In this document: piece by piece, positions 21,253 to 32,952 of the stretch | Numbering within the stretch: position 1 is the first letter of the stretch | How the letters are laid out: the number at the start of each line of letters is the position of its first letter | Origin: Obelidium mucronatum | Taxonomy: Eukaryota; Chytridiomycota; Chytridiomycetes; Chytridiales; Chytriomycetaceae | Assembly (NCBI GenBank): GCA_025765595.1 | Contig: JAIVFH010000045.1 | Location: 186,001 to 250,000, forward strand | Length of the DNA stretch: 64,000 nucleotides | Direction: 5' to 3' | Position numbers and translations under genes: made by a program | The notes under the pieces: generated by a model | Seen by the model: only the letters and a program-made list of their open reading frames with translations | The model's database searches: none | Told to the model about the DNA's origin: nothing

Positions 21253-21258
21253 TCCAAC
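21253..21258. repeat. Left target-site duplication TCCAAC of the 11.7-kb element
   Basis: Repeated at 32947-32952. The flanking sequence on both sides is the Helitron 5' region (rc of ggggttggaaggcaattcc), which becomes continuous once the element and one copy of TCCAAC are removed. Confidence 0.85.
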
Positions 21259-21563
21259 TATGGTCAGCCGTTTGACCAAATATTATTTTTTCAAAAGAGA
21301 GTCAAAATTCAATATTTTTTTTAACACACAGTCAAAAATCCCTCTTTTTTTTTAACACAGAGTGAAATCGAATTTTTTTTTTCAACACAGAGTTGTTATC
21401 GGAAAAAATAACAAGAGCGACGAAACTAATAAAAACCACTACTGGCAGATTTCTGCACATTTAAATCAACGTTATATGTAATTTACTCAGATTTCCAACA
21501 CATAGCAGTTGTCGTAGAGTTTGGGCAGTTGTGGCAAAAGTTCTGAAAAAAAAGAGAAGAAAA

Positions 21564-24500
21564 ATGACAACAACTGCATGTGTCAAGTGCAGTTGTTGCA
21601 ACCAGTTTAAACCGGCTGCAACAGTTCAAATTCTTGATGAGAAGCAGTGGTGCACTGACTGCCTTTCGAATCTGGTGAAGGACCGATCGCAAACAAACAG
21701 TTCACCATCAGTGGTCACAAATGGGGTTGCATCAAGAATGCCAACATCATCAGCAAACACAAAAACATTGCACGATACAAGGTACAGATGTCTTTATTGT
21801 TGTCGTCACTGACACTAACGGCTCATTCAGGAATGTCACCTCCTTTTTGAGCGGGGTTCAAACTCTCCAATCGCAAGCTGACGCAAGCTCAAGCACTGGA
21901 TCTGTAGCTGACGCAGCAAGTGCCGAAAGGCGCAATGTTATGGCACCATACAAGCCTTACCAAGGTCCCAATACGCTGGTTGCCCCTGGGGCAACAATAT
22001 TCAAGAATCGAGAAAAGCGCAAAGTTTCAGAAAAGTCCACCGTTGGTTCTAACAAAAGAAGCAACCCTATTCAATCAATTATCAAAAACCATTCCAGTGG
22101 TTCATCGGGCGTCAACCAACAAATCCCAGCTGATAATAGAAACGGCGGAATGGGTTACAAGGGGAAAGGGGTGACTATTAACATGTATTACGTCCCTCGA
22201 ACAATGTATTTTGACGACAAAGGGAATCGTCATGACATTTTTATCCTTCCATTTGATGAAATGTAAGATTTGTCATTTGTGGGCACCCATACGTGAGCTT
22301 ATTTCAAATTCACAGGCAAAAAGAACTCAAAACTCTCAAACTGTTTCCGGAAACGATTACAGTCAATTCGGGACTTTTGAAAAGTGCGTTAGAAACATTT
22401 GCGAAAAAGGGATACCAGATGACTGTCGATTCTCAATGTCCTTTTGACAAGCTTAACTGGGTTCTGATGAGTTACGAAGGAGGGTATCAAGTTGAAGGAA
22501 AGGTGATGTTTCAGCCCGAGTGCTCTTCGGAAAGACTTGAAACAATGTGGCAGCAACTTCAATCAGACGCGATGCTGAATGAGCAAGCCAAAGGACATGG
22601 CTATTACCAGCAGATCAGCAGTTATCAGAGCACGTTCCAGCGGAGAACAAAGAGCTATTTCGTCCATGCGTTTCCTAAAGATCAACCACTAGTTGGTGAG
22701 TAATTTTAAAACATCAATATTAGCTGACGGATACCACCAATCAGGGAATCACAGTATTGTATCTGGCATTGCGGCTCACCAGTTAAAGGATGGAATTGCT
22801 ACGATTGCTAAAACTGAGAGAGACCAACCCAGCGACAGCGAAGACCACAGTGACGACCACAATGGGATTGGGACACGCGCAGCAACTAAAACAGTGGAAT
22901 ATCCCATGTTTTCTTCAGTTGATATGGCGTTTTCAACTGAAAATATTGGTGAAAGCTCACAACAACCTTCTCAGCGTGCTCGACCAATGATCCACTTAGA
23001 TTGGACACATGACAATCCTCCCAGCGACGACACAACCGTATCTTCAATTTCGACAACGTTGCCGCCAGTTGATGATGATATTCTCCAACTCCTTGACGCT
23101 GACAACAATTTCCATTTGGAATTGGAGATGGCGTACTTTGCGTCGCAGGAATTGTCAAACAGTTCGGAAGCACTTGATCACACTCCTACAACCTCATCCT
23201 CTTCAAATGAACTAGAGCCGACGGTGGAAGAAATACGGAATCGGTCTGCCATGGCTGCTGTCGCAAGAGCTGCTCAACCAACGCCAGGATCTCAAACAGA
23301 AACTGTGCAACTACTGGGTCAGAACGATCAACAAAACCATCAAAACACTGAATCATCTACTCTTGCAGAAAACACAGAATCATCTACTGTTGCAGAAATT
23401 ACCGATATCTTTGCTGCTTGTGATCGTTTGCGGACGTGGGATTCTGCGCGTCTTGGTATCCCAACAGGGGAAAAATATGAAATTAGGCAACCTGCCGGTG
23501 GCTTTACAGCGTACAACATTGAAGGCCTTCTTGACGATGAAATGAGTACCCGGTCTTTTGCAAAACTTCCTGTTTTGCAAGATAATCAAGAATTCCCTGC
23601 GTTTGATGCTCGAGGCTCAGTATTGGCACAAACGGCAGTATTTTTTGGTGAAGAGAGACTTAAATCAAATGAGTTTGAAGGAGAAACTTTGAGACATTTT
23701 GGTTTGACGGAGCGAAAGCCAAGTGCACGATTGCGTTTGAGCTACATCAGCTTTGGAAAAGTACCGATTATTCATGTCTTTTCTGCTTATTATTAACATG
23801 ATTTCTTTCATTTAGTACCTGTGTTGGGGCCTTCTTCATCGCGCTGATGCATGCATGTTTCCTTCTCAAATGGCACCACAAATGCTACTGAACGTTTTAA
23901 ATGCGCCTGTAAGTTGGTACACGCGCGCGATGGTTGAAAGAAGTGGAAATGGGAATGTATTCCAGTTTATTGGCGCTAATCGCAACTACTACTGTGAAAG
24001 TGTGAAGGGAAGGATTGTTACCCACAATATTTGGGCTGATGAATTGGAATTGGATCAGTATGTGTGGGGGCCCGATGTAAGTTTTGATACACTCAAAAGG
24101 GTTTGCTAATATCTGTCACAGCTTGATAGGGATTGGGAGGCAGCCTTGGATAACGAATGGGAGGCATTTGTTATTCTGGCAGAATGTGTTCTGAAGTGCT
24201 ACACTGCTGCAGGACTTGCGCGACGAGGTTTTAATCATCATTGGCTCACAGATGATCAAAGTGAGGAAGAAGGACATGTCTATGAGCTCCCAGACTTTCA
24301 ACAGCTTTTTCCCCTTGTCGCGAATCTCTTTCGAGAACCAACAACATTTGATGAGTATCGAAAACAGTTTAAACCACTTGCATTGACTGCATCTGATCGT
24401 GAGCGCCAGACTTGGATGGCATGGATGGAAATTGCAAGAACTTGGACTTGCCAGCAGTACTGCAGAAGCTTGCGATTGATCACAGGACAGTCATTTATCC

Positions 24501-24694
24501 CTGTGCCGAAATTGATTGCTCTTTCATTCACTGCACAGCCAAACTATTGCAAGTACTCCACTTGCTTCAGCAATGTTAATGTCAGTTTTTACGATGTTTG
24601 TGAGGAGGGAGTTGATGGGGTGGCGTCTGGTATGTTTGCTGGGTTGATTGCGCCAGATATGTCTGACGAAGCCCTCAAATTTGGAGCAGTTTAA
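21564..24694 (+). CDS. Large protein with N-terminal zinc cluster and divergent HECT-like C-terminus
   Basis: Six exons: 21564-21781, 21831-22262, 22316-22695, 22724-23760, 23816-24076 and 24122-24694, all GT-AG, giving 966 residues. The start is the first ATG (MTTTACVKC). Residues 6-38 have CVKCSCC...WCTDC, a small zinc-ribbon-like cluster. The middle is Ser/Thr/Gln-rich and acidic. From about residue 620 it resembles a HECT ubiquitin ligase: FGKYLCWGLLHRADACMFPS matches the LG+..a.l+hg....fs segment; RLITGQSFIPVPK matches the FvTGs...Pp strand; YSTCFSNVNVSFYDV matches the catalytic TASTCFN loop, putting the thioester Cys near residue 924. In animals, multicopy G2E3-like HECT proteins are common in repeat-rich loci. 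The HECT assignment is by eye and needs a profile search. It converges on the integrase gene, 41 bp apart. Confidence 0.6.
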
Positions 24695-24735
24695 TAATAC
24701 ATAAATTCATTTATGAAAAATACAACTTTGAGCTC

Positions 24736-26572
24736 TCAATTTTCAGATTGTTCTTCACTTCCTTCATCTTCCGCTACGTCACTGTCGCTGTCAAAAATGC
24801 TGTCGACATTCACATCATTCTCTTGCATCATACCGTTAACAACTGCCTTAGCATCTCGAAATATGCGAGCCCCATGTTCTTGGTCATCAGACAGCATCAC
24901 ATCCTTTGGAAACATATGATGGAAGACTTCAAGCTGCATTGGGGTAAGGGGGCACTGAATCTTTCCAACACGAGCTCTTTCAGCTCTTGGATTTGGCATA
25001 AAGTTGCTGAAGTCTCCATCTTCAAATCTCTCACGTCGAGGTCGTCCATGAGGATCGTCTCCATAAATCTCAATTTCCCCATCATGCAGAGAATCTCCCA
25101 CAGGGTCATCCACAACAGATCGGCTTTGAAGAAGTAAACCCACGTTAAACACTAAGTTTGGTGATTTGTAGTGATGCATTCGCTTTTTATGATTGTTGTG
25201 AGCTTCTCGAAACTGATCCAGAACGAGTTGAATTCGTGGCAGAAATACTTGATGCAGAACCCAGAGCTCCCATGTATTATTCACATCCAAGCAGTCCCCT
25301 TCCATTTCCTGAAATACTTGCTTGAAATCGTCAATTACTTTCTTCCCCAAGTCAAGATTGAATCGTTCAATTCGCTGATTATGGACAGATCTCCCAGCAA
25401 TACAAGACCCCCTTCCTAGGCCATTCTTCTGGATCACATATTCTGCAACAAGGATATTTTCTCCACCTGTTTGCGCAAGATATTCAAAACAGTAACAAAT
25501 CAAAATGCACCAACCTTTATCGCATCTTACTCTGGAAGGCGTTCCATACGTGGCGCATCCACTCAAAAAAGCTTGAAGTACAGTTTCAGGACGGTTATTG
25601 GTTGATACTTTGGCATAAGTGCAGAGATGTGAAAAGCCATCGATTCCTAGCAGCCAGGGTTAAGATTGAGAATAGAAAAACGCACATCTTACCTGCGTGA
25701 ATAACAAACTTCCATTTGACTAATTTGTGGTTTCCATCAATATGCTGGAGTGCACGTGGTCCAATAACTGTATAGCGACGCCTCACAATCGCATGCACTA
25801 AACGATTGAATACGCCAACTGGGTCAGCTTCCTTAACAGCACAACGAACACGTTGCCTTGTTACACGAATACCAAACATTGACCATAAGTGAGCTGCAAT
25901 AAAGTCCGCACCTGACTTTTTGTGGATTCGGAATATATCGCGCACTTTTCCCAGCAAGTCAATGTCGGTAATATCCGACCATGAGTATGGATCTATGAAC
26001 GCTCCATTTGCAATTGCTTTTTGTATGGTGTTCATAAGAGTTGTTCGGCTTATATCTGCACAACTTGCTATAAGTGACCAAGTGGCGCCATACTGTCTCA
26101 GAACATGAACTTGAGCCAAGTTAACTTCCTTTTTTGGTCGGCCGGCACGTCCAGTTCTAGCAATCTCTACAGTCAGTCTCCCAGAGTATTCCTCCTTGAT
26201 TGTATCATCCACTTTGGTAATCAAATGTAGCAATCGTGCTTCCACATCAGACAAGTTCTCGATTATGGCTTCTGACAGTTTTGGACCCAAACGGTTCTGC
26301 TGATGAACCACAAACTGCAGAAGGGCTTCAATGTAACCAACCATCTGTTTCATTGTATCCCGATCCATTCGATGGCGTTTCTCAGTTCTGTAAGCCCTGC
26401 GTAGAGTCATCAGCGCGTATTCTGAAACATTGGCAATGAAATCTTGATCGTGTTGATTCCTGTCAAGAATCTCGGCCGTTTCATTGATATTTGCATCAAA
26501 AGCATTGTCCATGATCACATCTTCAAGGTCGTCATCCAGCTCATCCAAGTTGAAGGGTTGACCAAGGTCCAT
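24736..26572 (-). CDS. rve/DDE integrase-core transposase
   Basis: Exons 26572-25693, 25646-25515 and 25466-24736; introns of 46 and 48 nt; 580 residues. The start is ATG of MDLGQPFNLDELDDDLED. A helix-turn-helix-like region (about 155-190: GRPKKEVNLAQVHVLRQYG, ADISRTTLMNTI) precedes an integrase fold with first Asp in LQHIDGNHKLVKWKFVIHAG, continuing after the intron as GIDGFSHLCTYAKVSTNNRP. The second Asp is in SRVRCDKG, then GGENILVAEYV, and the Glu is in HNQRIERFNLD. This matches the integrase-core proteins common in basidiomycete and animal (fish, cnidarian) genomes, including GRGS.IAGRSVHNQRIERLW. Catalytic D-D-E triad is complete. It ends in an acidic tail. It most likely cuts and joins the TIRs of this element. 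Confidence 0.85.
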
Positions 26573-26726
26573 TGTTTTTCTTCTTTGTTTCAAGATGTTT
26601 CACTTATTGGGTAATAGACTTTATTGAGATCCCATCACTGGAAATCACCAAAATCCAAGAAACTCGTCCAGTTGATCGCTGGCCTTGGGATTGCGGCACT
26701 TTGTTGGCATTTTGTGAACAAAATAA

Positions 26727-26762
26727 AATTAACGCCGTCTGACGGCGTTAATTTTATTGACC
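26727..26762. promoter_or_regulatory. Perfect hairpin with AATAAA on both strands
   Basis: Arms AATAAAATTAACGCCGTC separated by a single T. Located between the integrase start and the minisatellite. Each arm carries AATAAA, so it could serve as a poly(A)/termination site in either direction. A similar core, AACGCCGTCTGACGGC, lies in the copia leader at 11790. Confidence 0.6.
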
Positions 26763-26794
26763 ATCAACAAACACCAATCACCAAACAAACCCCA

Positions 26795-27118
26795 ACCACG
26801 TAACCGAACCATCCAATACGGACGAGTAAACCAATTCCATCCAAGAACGGACAAGAATTCTTTGTCAAAACCCATAAACTCAAACCAAACCATCCAAAAC
26901 GGACAAGTAAACCAATTCCATCCAAGAACGGACGAGAATTCTTTGTCAAAACCCATAAACTCAAACCAAACCATCCAAAACGGACAAGTAAACCAATTCC
27001 ATCCAAGAACGGACAAGAATTCTTTGTCAAAACCCATAAACTCAAACCAAACCATCCAAAACGGACAAGTAAACCAATTCCATCCAAGAACGGACGAGAA
27101 TTCTTTGTCAAATATTCA
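26795..27118. repeat. 81-bp minisatellite, four copies
   Basis: Units run from gacgagtaaaccaattcc to accatccaaaacg and alternate between gac-a-ag and gac-g-ag at one site, so units 1/3 and 2/4 pair up. That suggests doubling of a two-unit block. 81 is a multiple of 3, so both strands look open. Confidence 0.9.
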
Positions 27119-27140
27119 AGAATCAGGACAAACTTCACCT

Positions 27141-27917
27141 TTATTTATAGTATTGATTAATAAAGTTATTGTTGCATTGTACACATTCAACAGAATTACA
27201 GTTACGGAATCTACACACGGCTGTAGAATGGCCAGGAATGCAGCAGTGAGAACAAGACCTGCTCTTTAAAACCCTGTCAGCGTCCCTTTCCTTGCACTGC
27301 GGCTTTTCACACCCGAGATACCGGCATACCAGTCTGCATGTTTCACGCTGATGTTGAAGCTGCCTATCAAGTCGCAAGTCGCAGTGCTGGCACTTGAGAT
27401 TCTTGCCAGCAGATCGAGCTTCTTTTTGTCTTGCCAAGTACACGTGATAACAGTGTAGCATTCGCATTGTCACAGTTTCAGATTCAGTTCGCTGCCGTTC
27501 TGGAGGTGACAGTGGCTTTACTTTCAGGCTTTCCTGTAGAAGTATGTCGCCTGCCCAATCTATCAGAAAACATAAAGAAACTATGTCAGATTGAAGAAAA
27601 TGCAGTTACCTTCAACGTCAGGTGTGGCCCAAAATTCTTTTTTCAGGGCGGCAGGATTGAACGATTCTGCCGAATCCATATCAAGCGTGTCCCCCTCCTC
27701 GGTCTCAGACTCCAGATCCTCACTCAAACTCTCCACTTCATCAAATTCGACCCCTGCCTGAGGCTAAATGTGTGAGAGAAGAATTTCAGCAGAGCCGTTC
27801 ATTCAATACCTGGTGTTGATTGACAAGGTTGCTCAAAGGAATCCCAACCTCCTCGTAGCTACCGCTCTTTTCATATCGACAAATTACGGACGCAAGGTGG
27901 TACTGAAAACTGCTCAT
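27141..27917 (-). CDS. Cys/His-rich putative zinc-binding protein
   Basis: Exons 27917-27810, 27763-27610 and 27559-27141; introns 46 and 50 nt; 226 residues; start MSSFQYHLASVICRYEKSGS. The middle is acidic (VESLSEDLESETEEGD). The last 80 residues hold 14 Cys and several His: CQHCDLRLDRQLQHQ, RLVCRYLGCEKPQCKE, RSCSHCCIPGHSTAVC and CVQC. The spacing is compatible with three zinc sites; I do not recognise a named family. It is divergent from the H3-like gene with 156 bp between start codons, so they may share a promoter. Confidence 0.65.
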
Positions 27918-28073
27918 TGGTTTTTTTAGTTTGACAGGTTTTTTTCTGGCTTCGAGCTTTGATGAGCATTTCTTGGGCGGGACTTTGGGCGGGATTTTCA
28001 CCAATCTTTTTCAAAGTTAAACTGGAAGCATTATTATTATTATTTTTTGAAAGAAAGGTTATCTCATTCAAAC

Positions 28074-28859
28074 ATGGGTAGAAAGCGGCAGCCACCAAAA
28101 CGACTGGATTCAGTTGCTCAATCAAGTCAAACACACTCAATCAACAACCGGAACACCAAAAATCAAAAACTTACTCTTGCTGGAGTTCATGGTCCATTTC
28201 GGGCTCTTCGCGAGATTCAAAAGTATCAAAAGATGGATGGACGACTGCTTTTAACAGCTTCATTTCGTCGCATTGTAAGAGCTTTACATAAACATTTTTA
28301 TGCCTCTCTCATGTCTATTCAACAGATTCGTACAGTTACAATTGAACTGTTCACTGAGGCTCGCGGAATTCGGTTTGCTGCTCAAGCTCTGGAGTGCATC
28401 CAAGATGCTGCCGAGGCATATCTTGTAACACTTATGGAAGATGCCAATCGCGTTGCAATCCATGCAAAACGCGTAACATTGTTTCCAACTGACATACGGC
28501 TTGTAAACTATCTTCGTCGGCATTCCCTTCCTTCCAACAGCTCTGAAGTGAAATCAGCTGGTATTCCCCACCAAAATCTGAATGTTGATGAAATGAATGA
28601 AAAGCTTCTTCCGAGTACCGCTGTCCATCCAAAAGCAAGGCGTGGACGATTAATTGCCACTGTTCCAGCTTGTGGGGAATCAACAAACAAGGCTGACAAA
28701 GACTTTATTCCAACTGGTCAAAAGAAGCGTCAAAGAATTACTGCCGGTGGTGAAAAGGATGGAACTGAGGAAGAAATGGTGTTGCCACGGAGAAGTCGTC
28801 GACGACTGACAGTTGTGCAAGATAGCGATTCAGAGACTGGTCCTGCTTCAGCTGCATGA
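28074..28859 (+). CDS. Transposon-borne histone H3 paralog, CenH3-like
   Basis: Exons 28074-28274 and 28326-28859; 244 residues, start MGRKRQPPKRLD. Residues about 39-131 are an H3 histone fold. The aN helix reads GPFRALREIQKYQK (H3: GTVALREIRRYQK). After the intron, AAQALECIQDAAEAYLVTLM and EDANRVAIHAKRVTLFPTDI match helix 2 and the C-terminal part of H3 ([20 protein letters not shown]). Loop 1 (FTEARGIRF) is three residues longer than in canonical H3, the length seen in yeast Cse4; QAL and VTLFP also agree with CENP-A. The N-tail lacks the ARTKQTARKS modification sites. A tail of about 110 residues follows the fold and ends in Arg-rich and acidic patches. The 51-nt intron is in frame, so retention would insert 17 residues in helix 1. 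Confidence 0.85.
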   Translation: MGRKRQPPKRLDSVAQSSQTHSINNRNTKNQKLTLAGVHGPFRALREIQKYQKMDGRLLLTASFRRIVRALHKHFYASLMSIQQIRTVTIELFTEARGIRFAAQALECIQDAAEAYLVTLMEDANRVAIHAKRVTLFPTDIRLVNYLRRHSLPSNSSEVKSAGIPHQNLNVDEMNEKLLPSTAVHPKARRGRLIATVPACGESTNKADKDFIPTGQKKRQRITAGGEKDGTEEEMVLPRRSRRRLTVVQDSDSETGPASAA

Positions 28860-28965
28860 TATTGAACTAAACCTGTAAAATTATTGAAATTAATGTGAGG
28901 GTCTTTTCCACAAATAAATTGATTTGTGGGCTCATTTGTTTGCTGCCATTTGCACCATTTTTTTA

Positions 28966-30612
28966 ATGAGAAACGTGCGATACTGGAGGCATGACCCCAG
29001 CCCAATACCGTTTCATGGGCCAAAGATTGTGGAGCTGGAATCTACGTACCACACAGGTAGAGATGGTATTCAGGAACAGGACCAGCAGATCATTCGGTGG
29101 GGGAGCCAGCAGTCCGCAGGAAGGAGCGAGAGATCCGCAGGAACGAACAGCTCCCATGATTCAGTCCAACTGACCACAGATACTGTGCCATCTGCCAATG
29201 GTGTGAGTTCTGGCTGTATCGATGATGATATCAGTGGAACAAGCCGCACAGCATCGATCCTACTTCCCAAGCCAAAAAGACCAAAGAGATCGGTTTCAGC
29301 TGGTAACATTTCCAATCCTTCTGGGCTTACTGGAGGAGGGCAGCAGCAAAGTTCTTCTATTCATTCCAGCATTCGAATCATGTTTCCACCAGTATCTGAG
29401 TATCCTTCTACCTCTCTTCCTCCCAATACATTGGCAGCTGTTTCAACCTCTCCTCCTCCTAATACATCGGCTGCTGTTTCAACCTCTCCATCGACCGCTG
29501 TCTCAACCTCTCCATCGACCGCTGTTTCAACCTCTCCATCGGCCGCTGTTTCAATCTCTCCATCGGCTGGTGTTTCAACCTCTCCATTGGCCGCTGTTTC
29601 TATTGACGACCATGCTCTGACTCCATCTTCAAGTGCCCCAAACCCTGTTTTACCTACCGGAGCTACTACTGCTTCATTTTCTAAGGCTGTTCCAGCAGTT
29701 GAAGCACCTGTCACTGGATGGTTGAAGCTATCTGTTGTTATTCCCCAGAATATCAAAACAGTTAAAGTGAAAGTGCCACACTTCAATTCAGTGGTGCACT
29801 TCAAGGACGTTCTCAATGCCGTCAACAAGCTTCCCATTCATGTTGCTGGTGGAATTGCCGAAACAGTATGCATCATTGGTGAAGATGGCGTGGAGGACTG
29901 GACATTTGAAGGAGAAATCAATCTCCATGAATACCCAGCAAACTTATTTGCAGTCTACTTAAAGGCGGGAGATCCTTTCAAACCAGTGGAAATCCCACCT
30001 GTCTCTGGTTCAAAATCTACAGTGTCTAAACGAGTACCAGCCCAGGATTCCGCCCCAACACTAATTCAGCCTTCTGATTCTGCCTCCCCGTCTGCCTCTA
30101 CAGTCATCAAAACCGAAATTAGTAGAGCCAGCAACACAGTGGGACTGTGCCTGCGGCAAGTTGAGTTGTTTGCTGCAAAGTACAGTGAAACAAAAGCAAC
30201 TTCAAAATCAAACACAAAGGGGACATCGAAGAATGCTGTTGCACGAGCAATTATTCAGGAAAACGCTGTAGAATGCTCTACTTGGCCAGCAAGTAAGTTT
30301 AAGAAAACGCGTTAAGCATTTCTCACAACTTTCCTCCGAATAGCTGGGGATATGTACCTGTATAAAGCAGCCATTTTTGAAACATCAGCACGATTAAGCC
30401 AAATTTCAGCACTACGTCATGTGTCGTTGAAGGACGCATCTCGTGCGTCTGAGCCTTTTGATATCAAGAAAATCACCGTTGAGTTGACTGGGTTGTTGGA
30501 CAAGGTGAATGTTGGGCATAACATTGACATTAATGTTAAGGGAGGAAACACAAAATTGTGGGCAATGTGGGGTACTTTTCATAAGTCAGAGGCTTGGTTA
30601 CAGTGGAAATAA
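28966..30612 (+). CDS. Unrecognised 531-residue protein of the 11.7-kb element
   Basis: Exons 28966-30292 and 30344-30612. I chose the first ATG (MRNVRYWRHDPSPIP). The first half is low-complexity Ser/Thr/Pro with an 8-9 residue repeat (AVSTSPS) at 29420-29600. A globular-looking block follows (GWLKLSVVIPQNIKTVKVKV ... TFEGEINLHEYPANLF). The C-terminal 150 residues include GLCLRQVELFAAKY, RASEPFDIKKITVELTGLLD and WAMWGTFHKSEAWLQWK. It follows the H3-like gene on the same strand at 106 bp. Function unknown. Confidence 0.65.
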
Positions 30613-31859
30613 AGTTTCATATTAATAATCTTTGCTTTTTATCCCCAATCTAATTCTTTTTGAATGGAGTCAAATGCCCCCGAATCATTTGCCCACTAAT
30701 GAGCAAGATGCCCACTTTCGCGATTTAAAGTTGCATTCTGTTTTCTTCTTACATTCATTCCTTTGTTGCTTCTTTTTGTTCTTTCTTTCATTGTTCCTTC
30801 TTTCCTTTGTACCTTCTTTCCTTTGTTCCTTCCTTTCCTTTGTGGGCAAAATATTCTCCCAAAAAATGCCCGTCTTTCCACTATCCCTGACTATAGCATT
30901 GATTACAGCATTGATTACAGCATATAACGCACAGATGCAGAAGGGGGAAGATCTCATTGCGACCTTCTGGCCTCCTTCATCTACGTCTGTGTGTTGCTGC
31001 CTTCTATTTGCTTTCTCCATATATCCCCCCACATGCAATTCAAAAACAACTACCTTTGTGATTTAGTGTTGTATTCTCGGAAGGAGCATGGGATGAATCG
31101 ACTATCAGGCCAGTTGACGTTACCTTCTATGTGAATTCCTTGGTAAAACCAACAGTTAAAAGTTGCCACAGACAAGGTCTTGCAAACCAAATCAAGACTA
31201 TGAATCCTCCTAAGTGTTATTTTTTATCAGTGTATCAAATCAGCTCTAACCAAAGCAAACAGTAGCAACCAATTTGAACAACGGCAATCATTATCAAAAC
31301 CTGAACAGTCATACAAGGGAAAATTATCTTGTTTATTTTTGTTGGTAATTCTGTTTTATTTGAAAAAAAGACACAAAACATGGAAGGTAGGAGACATAGT
31401 TGTAGTCAATCACGCGTGATTTACGGGGCCATCGTTGGCTGAGGGAAAGCGCGTTTGTCGACGTCAAAAAATTAGTTGGTCTCGGACAACAATTTGACAT
31501 CACACGCGCTCCCACCTCGACGCACACGCCACCGGTCATCATTCGAACTCCCTCGCTCTCTGTATAAAAAACTCCCACCCCCCCTGTTCCTTGCTTCGAC
31601 CCAAGACGAGCTGCCAGCTGCCATTTGTGGGGGCCTACCATCGTAACCTCCACCGGTCTTTTCGCTCTTCCTTGGGTACATTTGCACGGTTCGAAGCGGT
31701 TTGGGGGTGCCATCGCACCTACCTTCTCTTTGTCGTGAAATCCCAATAAAGGCTTGTTTATTGCCACTTGTTGAGCGATAAACATTGTGAGGAATTGAGC
31801 GGTGCCGTTCGATGGGTGCACTTGGCACAATTCACTGCATAGCTTTACACACCGTTCCA
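30613..31859. other. Spacer with CTTCTTT-rich tract; possible extra exons of the F-box-like gene
   Basis: 30740-30845 is a T/C-rich tract with no credible gene. On the minus strand 31860-31725 reads RCVKLCSELCQVHPSNGTAQ and ends at a good donor (AAG|gtaggt), so it may be a further exon of the F-box-like gene. I could not place the rest. Confidence 0.4.
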
Positions 31860-32685
31860 CATTACACTGCCACCAAAAAAATTAAGACGTGCTAGTGCCA
31901 CTGTCTGATCAAGTCCTTTTATTAATGTTGCAAACCACAACTGACTCATTACTCGAAGAACACAAACCACATTAACCTTCCTATGGACCAAAATTCCCGC
32001 AAAACACTCCATTAGACTCATTATCAGAATCCGAACCCTCATCCGACGTGGTTTCAAAGTAGTGCGCTAAGTCACCACAACTTTGATCCATCATTCCAGC
32101 CACCACCGCAGAATCAACATTGGTGATGTATCTCACAACAGCTTCGGTGCAGCTTGGGAATCTCTTCAGCCACAGTACAAGAAAACTTCTTTTATCGCAC
32201 TTTTCCACCAGCACAAGTCGTGGCTGCAGTTTAATCTTGATCAAGCGCTTAAGCCACTTCTGAAACCCTTGACCATAACCACCACCATTGATAGGGAACC
32301 CAATGCACCACAGGGCTGCCAAATAGTTGTAGTTTAAGCTGTTTACCCAGCTGACAGATAGCTGACGCCGCACCAACTCTTCATTTCGTTTTTGATGTCT
32401 TTCACGAATAGCACAAGCAGGTCCTGCTCGCGGAACGTCCGAAACAAGTCTTGTCCAATAATGGATGTCTGTTTCAGGTGGATTTTGCGTAAATCTGTCT
32501 GACAACAGGTGTTCCTTAGCAAAGGTTCGGTCGTTGAGGATTGCTGCAAACTGCTTGTTGGCTGCACCAACAACATGGAAGAGATGCCTGCTGACTGGGA
32601 GCTTGATCAAAATCATTTGCACCACTTCAGGAGGAACACCATATCCCGACGGGTATTGTGAAGTCATTTTTAATGACCTTGCCAT
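31860..32685 (-). CDS. F-box-like protein of the 11.7-kb element
   Basis: Start MARSLKMTSQYPSGYGVPPE at 32685 (MTSQ at 32667 is also possible). An F-box-like segment follows at once: PPEVVQMILIKLPVSRHLFH and ANKQFAAILNDRTFAKEHLL. The rest has Trp/Tyr-rich helical segments (LVRRQLSVSWVNSLNYNYLA, FQKWLKRLIKIKLQPRLVLV) like the ankyrin-type tails of chytrid F-box proteins, and an acidic end near 31985. F-box proteins recruit substrates to SCF ubiquitin ligases through Skp1. 3' exon structure is unsure. It may be host-derived: a related F-box/ankyrin gene lies at 7.5 kb. Confidence 0.55.
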
Positions 32686-32946
32686 CAGACTTATCTGTTT
32701 TATACCGCATTCGACGGAGGCCAGTGTGTGACTTTTTTTTTTCAAACATGCTCTATGTGTTAAATATTTTCTTGTTTATGAACTCTTGTGGGAAAAAAAA
32801 TATTTGTGCAAACTGTGTGCAAAAAAAATCTGACTTGCATGATATGTTGCAAAAAAAATAAAATTAAAGTGCTACCTGTTGCACAAAAATCTGGGAAATG
32901 TCTATATCTTCCAAATAAATAATATTTGGTCAAACGGCTGACGGTA

Positions 32947-32952
32947 TCCAAC
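32947..32952. repeat. Right target-site duplication TCCAAC
   Basis: Pairs with 21253-21258. Confidence 0.85.

Follow-up and report, generated by a model that had tools for sequence, protein, structure and literature searches.

A histone H3-like gene within an IS3EU-like DNA transposon of the chytrid Obelidium mucronatum, possibly part of a chromatin cassette

Introduction

Two cases of a DNA transposon carrying its own histone H3 gene are in print, both concerning hAT elements (PMC3538342, PMC6710886). In Pyrenophora tritici-repentis, the gene H3L is present in a hAT transposon with 26 copies, and its authors consider it neither H3 nor CenH3 (PMC3538342). In Pseudocercospora fijiensis and five relatives, a host H3 gene was captured and multiplied by a hAT transposon (PMC6710886). 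The nearest parallel for the sharing of a cargo is given by the TET/JBP dioxygenase genes, carried by 11 fungal DNA transposon lineages including IS3EU and Plavaka, with transfer between superfamilies (PMC12730594). Here we analyze 64,000 nucleotides of the genome of the chytrid Obelidium mucronatum (GenBank assembly GCA_025765595.1, contig JAIVFH010000045.1, positions 186,001 to 250,000), hereafter the window, located on the contig that we call C45. An H3-like gene (28074..28859, plus strand) lies there within a complete IS3EU-like DNA transposon, element A (21259..32946). An earlier sequence-only reading of the window knew of no transposon described as carrying an H3 of its own; the two hAT cases show that view to be wrong. 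No report of H3 in IS3EU, Plavaka or chytrid elements was found in the literature searched, which mostly lacks subscription papers.

What is new here is an H3 gene placed head-to-head with a gene for an acidic Cys-rich protein (the partner gene) beside a tandem array, with related cassettes in Plavaka elements. The Pyrenophora case is alike in that its transposon-borne H3 is, per its authors, outside both H3 and CenH3. It differs by its hAT transposase and its near-identical recent copies, whereas the present elements are IS3EU-like or Plavaka, have diverged deeply, and possess the partner gene, the array and a C-terminal extension of the histone. The P. fijiensis case shares an H3 inside a multiplied DNA transposon; there the gene is an intronless transcript copy inactivated by repeat-induced point mutation, while here predicted introns are retained and several copies are open. 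As with TET/JBP, one epigenetic cargo is found across unrelated transposon superfamilies and an anti-silencing role has been suggested, but TET/JBP is a DNA-modifying enzyme of Basidiomycota and Ascomycota elements and the present cargo is a histone with a partner in a chytrid. On balance we favor, at slightly better than even chances, the reading that this IS3EU-like transposon has kept the H3-like gene as an accessory gene within a chromatin cassette, perhaps one that counters silencing.

Results and discussion

The limits of element A (11,688 bp) derive from its homology with a second complete copy at C15:372877-384555. This comparison gives the termini TATGGTCAGCC.../...GGCTGACGGTA, reading TATGG... 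at the left end and ...CGGTA at the right. The arms of the terminal inverted repeats (TIRs) are at 21263-21298 and 32907-32942 (36 nt, 89% complementary). The target site duplication (TSD) TCCAAC is present on the left (21253..21258) and on the right (32947..32952), as established by the same comparison and by empty sites (L065-L070) having a single TCCAAC. The exact empty site was found in all six repeat loci fetched. The flanks of A, when joined with a single TCCAAC, match uninterrupted repeats, the junction being spanned in 31 of the 42 matches listed. The copy on C15 has different flanks and a TSD with one mismatch (GAACAG/GAACGG), and a third copy, on C313, is ended by the contig start inside the partner gene. 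The TIR pattern, with up to three mismatches allowed, gave 11 matches in the whole genome versus 3 in the control. Five are exact, i.e. both ends on C45 and C15 and one end on C313; the other six carry 2-3 mismatches. The H3-like gene is located between the TIRs and open in both complete copies (C45 and C15), which is the arrangement expected of a transduplicated H3, namely H3 between TIRs in several copies of one element. The location well inside the element and the status of transposon component, both proposed by the sequence-only reading, are thus borne out by exact limits, TSD, empty site and two complete copies at different insertion sites. That reading had also considered a gene missing from other copies and being the host's only CenH3. 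As far as visible this is not the case, because both complete copies have the gene and the genome contains another CenH3 candidate (C209/C55). The existence of a second copy and of an empty site rules out an interrupted host gene. A search of the organism's own genome for H3 returned 32 rows.

The H3-like open reading frame (ORF) has an H3 fold with the motifs quoted earlier (Pfam Histone, E 9.4e-22). Comparison of the window with C15 predicts exon 1 at 28074..28274, a 51-nt intron at 28275..28325 (GTAAGA...CAACAG, GT..AG, in frame) and exon 2 at 28326..28859, which encodes the greater part of the histone fold together with the C-terminal extension (about 110 residues). The intron is predicted because the flanking reading frames of the two copies agree only when spliced. 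Its counterpart in C15 has 50 nt, and the window intron leaves the frame open by chance; once spliced, both genes are open over 244 codons, giving a protein of 244 residues. The top PDB score rises from 60.5 bits unspliced to 68.4 bits spliced, a value reached equally by 8kcb (an H3) and S. pombe Cnp1. The unspliced 261-residue protein is ruled out, as it would have 17 additional residues within helix 1 and the intron in C15 differs by being one base shorter. An AlphaFold model of the unspliced ORF was too poor for use (predicted local distance difference test, pLDDT, 41). The loop 1 three residues longer than in H3 holds for the spliced protein, and the lack of the canonical N-tail and the presence of the extension, also noted from the sequence, are both confirmed. 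Two GGGCGGGA sites, 12 bp apart (27975-27994) and about 90 bp 5' of the start codon, are kept in C15. Of such GGCGGGA sites 5' of H3, element A has two and the family B element described below has one (reverse); none was seen on contigs C20 and C35 or in three canonical H3 promoters.

Head-to-head with this gene, on the minus strand, lies the partner gene. It consists of an N-terminal exon at 27810..27917 (MSSFQYHLASVICRYEKSG.., with the counterpart MSNFQFRLAAVIVKYEK in family B), an acidic exon at 27614..27757 (EVESLSEDLESETEEGDTL..KKEFW, limits approximate, with counterparts in families B and C) and a Cys-rich, zinc-knuckle-like exon, zn, at 27144..27494. The acidic stretch is present in the partners of A, B and C, and zinc binding by the Cys-rich exon is putative, read from the Cys/His spacing. 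The partner has no Pfam match, and its AlphaFold model (mean pLDDT 56) was too poor for use. In the genome, zn gave 19 rows and is found within 1.5 kb of 13 H3 rows at 11 loci (C45, C15, C2, C202, C10a, C35, C20, C62, C36, C10b and C221), always head-to-head. The number of loci is nine if C62 and C221 are merged with their look-alike duplicates C20 and C10b. The contig pairs C20/C62, C10/C221 and C209/C55 score equally or nearly so in several searches and are perhaps unmerged haplotypes. H3-like rows without zn are those of C678, C143, C73, C6, C28, C85 and C112 (C528 being left out of this count). No zn occurs within 1.5 kb of the canonical H3 and CenH3-candidate rows; one canonical H3 sits 7.8 kb from the zn of family B, and the others have none. 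Conversely, C33 has zn pieces and no H3 match, and C53 and C118 carry further zn genes of the C35 type.

Adjoining the partner gene is a tandem array (26802..27112) of 3.8 units of 81 bp that repeats the 18-bp motif CCATCCAANACGGACARG. Arrays were also found in C2 of family B (71 bp x 3.1), C20 (46 bp x 4.1), C10b (92 bp x 3) and C36 (46 bp x 2.4), and in all five cases the partner gene lies between array and H3; C35 has no comparable array at the corresponding place. Among the three families, the motif is common to the arrays of A and B and not to that of C. Genome-wide, it has 42 matches with at most one mismatch, versus 0 for a reversed control. Most of them (37) are at zn places (C2 6, C10 10, C15 7, C33 2, C45 4, C202 6, C313 2), and five are elsewhere (C305 2, C652 2, C27 1). 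The locus on C305 (L071, C305:10301-16950) is a foldback-like repeat whose 1.8-kb inverted arms are 93% alike, with the array motif near both ends; at C652:600-6784 the motif spacing is the same as in C305.

Related cassettes are carried by other transposons of this genome. The family B element C2:755484-764107 has identical 21-nt TIRs, a 2-bp TSD (TA), the ends CATCGC..GCGATG and, between its TIRs, a Plavaka transposase (PF18759, E 6.9e-21). A shorter copy with the same TIRs, C10:143020-147588, lacks the transposase region, and C202 is a partial copy. In family C, on C20, a Plavaka ORF (PF18759, E 2.1e-26) adjoins the zn-H3 pair, and the copy on C36 has an internal deletion and different flanks; the homology limits of this family are sharp, and no convincing TIR was seen at its ends. 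The carrier is thus not a hAT transposase as in the published H3 cases, but rva_4 in A and Plavaka in C2 and C20. The transposase of A has no match with those of C2 and C20, which, although both Plavaka, align weakly with each other (24%, E 0.07-0.09). The DNA alignment between A and B is limited to the array, the partner and H3. Since the related cassettes sit in Plavaka transposons of the same genome, the cassette either moved from one transposon lineage to another or was taken up on more than one occasion, and the data do not decide between the two.

Splicing of family C, predicted likewise, matches the public protein P0003. Different splicing is given in P0001, a public model derived from a family B copy with a frameshift. 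The predicted intron position is common to A, B (GC..AG), C, C35, C28 and the CenH3 candidate C209, and is absent from the seven canonical H3 genes read (L010, L011, L012, L014, L015, L017 and L018). Despite only 32% identity between A and C, the residues H113, R116, D123 and L126, which make contacts in the H3-H3 bundle, are identical in A, B and C, as are the DNA contacts R72, R83 and T118. In a database search with three transposable element (TE) H3 proteins, 838 of the 7994 proteins scored reached E <= 1e-8. The best two of the 120 proteins listed are from Obelidium, and the third, from Lotus, contains two H3 folds of the ordinary kind. Of ten proteins examined from these 120, only P0003 is of the transposon type.

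Further variants were noted on other contigs. The C10b cassette, which shares 80% DNA identity with the C20 cassette, adjoins an unclassified repeated ORF. A further divergent H3 variant, at C143:11015-12061, is 98 bp from an ORF of the same repeated kind; this ORF has 24 matches and no Pfam match, and we do not count it as a proven transposase. On C35 (L040, C35:32001-41000), a SET ORF (C35:36811-37881, PF00856, E 2.3e-8) lies directly 3' of the H3 variant and zn. It is flanked by copies, in inverted orientation, of an uncharacterized repeated gene (21 matches) and may encode a histone methyltransferase, which would place such an enzyme next to H3 and partner. The start codon and the histone fold of the C35 gene are in different frames; it may have decayed or may contain a further intron.

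How could such a cassette work? It would comprise the H3 variant with its C-terminal extension, the divergently transcribed acidic Cys-rich protein and the adjoining array. The encoding of an acidic protein together with a histone suggests, as the likeliest mechanism, that the partner is a dedicated chaperone or loader for the H3 variant, and its Cys-rich part and the neighboring motif array suggest that it binds DNA, presumably the repeated motif. The H3 variant would pair with H4, and variant nucleosomes devoid of the usual H3 tail would be placed on the element, which would then not be silenced. More tentatively, as something that we hold to be possible but short of an even chance, these parts (H3 variant, acidic DNA-binding loader and site array) would form a self-contained chromatin-assembly system shared across transposon superfamilies and escaping host silencing. 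Alternatively, the pair could serve transposition itself, with partner and H3 variant wrapping the array or the ends into a transpososome-like complex. The array is indeed within the element and close to the transposase, and the motif is near both ends of the foldback-like repeat. Yet it is not in the TIRs of A and B, and the cassette is carried by elements with different transposases, so that we regard a role in transposition in place of anti-silencing as very improbable.

The sequence-only reading had called the protein CenH3-like, a label that on the whole is not supported. The longer loop 1 and the intron position shared with C209 speak for this part of the claim, and sequence identities and trees favor C35 instead. 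Over the fold, the window protein is 52% identical to C35, 47% to Cnp1, 46% to host H3, 41% to the CenH3 candidate and 39% to human CENP-A (references including human, budding yeast and plant sequences). Two trees were made, one of 19 rows and one of 18 rows with database sequences added and doubtful rows left out. Both group families A and B with C35, whose loop 1 is two residues longer than in H3, and not with CenH3 (support 92/89 and 98/93, respectively). In approximately unbiased (AU) tests a grouping with CenH3 was not excluded (p 0.21 for tree 1, 0.15 and 0.17 for tree 2), and tree 2 does not resolve a clade of the CenH3 rows. The window protein thus appears no nearer to CenH3 than to H3. 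For the host, which also has canonical H3 genes, the search for its own CenH3 led to the separate candidate C209/C55, with HRYRPG, a longer loop 1 and nothing from the three transposase lists within 8 kb. The C209 fold is 77% identical to P0007 of Synchytrium, which we take to be a CenH3. Whether C209 is a CenH3 is uncertain in its turn, since in the PDB it matches canonical H3 best (159.5 bits; Cnp1 155.8 bits). The window gene as the host's CenH3 was set aside, C209/C55 being another candidate though one that best matches canonical H3. A CenH3-related origin of the transposon H3 is possible because the intron position is shared with C209 and not with the seven canonical genes. With a captured CenH3-type gene, the element might then attract chromatin of the kinetochore kind and so be segregated or directed to centromeres. 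Such mimicry would fit loop 1, the intron position, the AU tests, the equal scores of Cnp1 and 8kcb and the uncertainty about C209. With the protein nearer to host H3 than to the CenH3 candidate, and nearest to C35, its companion in both trees, we consider mimicry improbable.

Several observations weigh against a kept chromatin cassette. The DNA contacts R63/K64 are missing from A. Of 6 rva_4 loci, only 2 have an H3 at a distance of 8 kb or less, another one being truncated; the same holds for only 3 of 31 Plavaka loci. The array motif also occurs in the foldback-like repeat of C305, which has no H3 or zn match. No partner homolog was detectable in the database search, which says little because even this genome's own copies were not found. 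A single clade of the TE H3 rows from which C35 is absent gave p values of 0.13 (tree 1) and 0.022 (tree 2), the latter a rejection. Within families, the omega of H3 is 0.65 (A, from 6 synonymous and 12 nonsynonymous changes), 0.67 (B) and 1.03 (C), and that of the partner is 0.99 in family B, all from few changes. Finally, several copies are damaged: the H3 of C10a is frameshifted, that of C202 has a deletion in helix 2, that of C10b contains stops, and the partner gene of C15 is in two frames.

These ratios, the damaged copies, the absence of H3 from most related transposase loci and the published hAT-borne precedents are what one would expect if captured host gene pairs drifted passively in transposons without benefit, as for the hAT H3 of Dothideomycetes. 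Against such passive transduplication, the colinear pair is kept between A and B over a distance at which dS is saturated and dN is 0.2-0.4, their arrays share the motif, and the predicted introns are retained, unlike in the intronless P. fijiensis copies. Between A and B (C2), H3 has a dN of 0.38 and a dS of 1.66, and in the partner dN is 0.22 and some 53 of the 65 synonymous sites have changed; the ratios are rough because dS is saturated. For the first transposase exon of A, omega between window and C15 is 0.24. Long-term constraint on H3 and partner is indicated by these sequence comparisons, and recent constraint finds no support in them. We therefore judge passive drift to be rather unlikely, and retain the kept accessory gene as the preferred reading.

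Element A contains further genes. The transposase (24736..26593, minus strand) matches the PF24764 rva_4 integrase core (147.6 bits), probably has two exons (26593 to about 25661, and 25659-24739) and is 96-97% identical in C15 and C313. A second large gene region (21531..24694, plus strand), encoded on the other strand than the transposase, is spread over several frames and is similar in C15 and C313. TET+ IS3EU families have an alpha-kinase gene opposite the transposase (PMC12730594), and the region in A has the same place and orientation. Its frames, searched piecewise, gave no Pfam match. A 463-codon ORF 3' of H3 (28924..30315, plus strand) is spread over several frames in C15. A 254-codon ORF (31981..32745, minus strand) has no significant Pfam match and is in two frames in C15. 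IS3EU elements have TA..TA termini and a 6-bp TSD (PMC10045372, PMC12730594), and A has both. Fungal TET+ IS3EU families are further described in the latter source as having TIRs of more than 30 bp and the ends TAYGG..CCRTA; A has 36-nt TIRs, its left TATGG agrees, and its right end reads TACCG. By its ends and TSD, element A thus fits with IS3EU.

Conclusions

Fungi far apart from each other harbor unrelated transposons that have acquired an H3, namely hAT elements in Dothideomycetes and IS3EU-like and Plavaka elements in a chytrid. That H3 is kept here with a partner and a motif across transposon superfamilies suggests use rather than accident. With the partner and the motif, this idea can be put directly to the test in vitro. 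If true, the proposed assembly system would be a histone-based counterpart of the transposon-borne TET/JBP and VANDAL anti-silencing factors, and transposons would, beyond evading chromatin enzymes or recruiting them, bring their own nucleosome parts.
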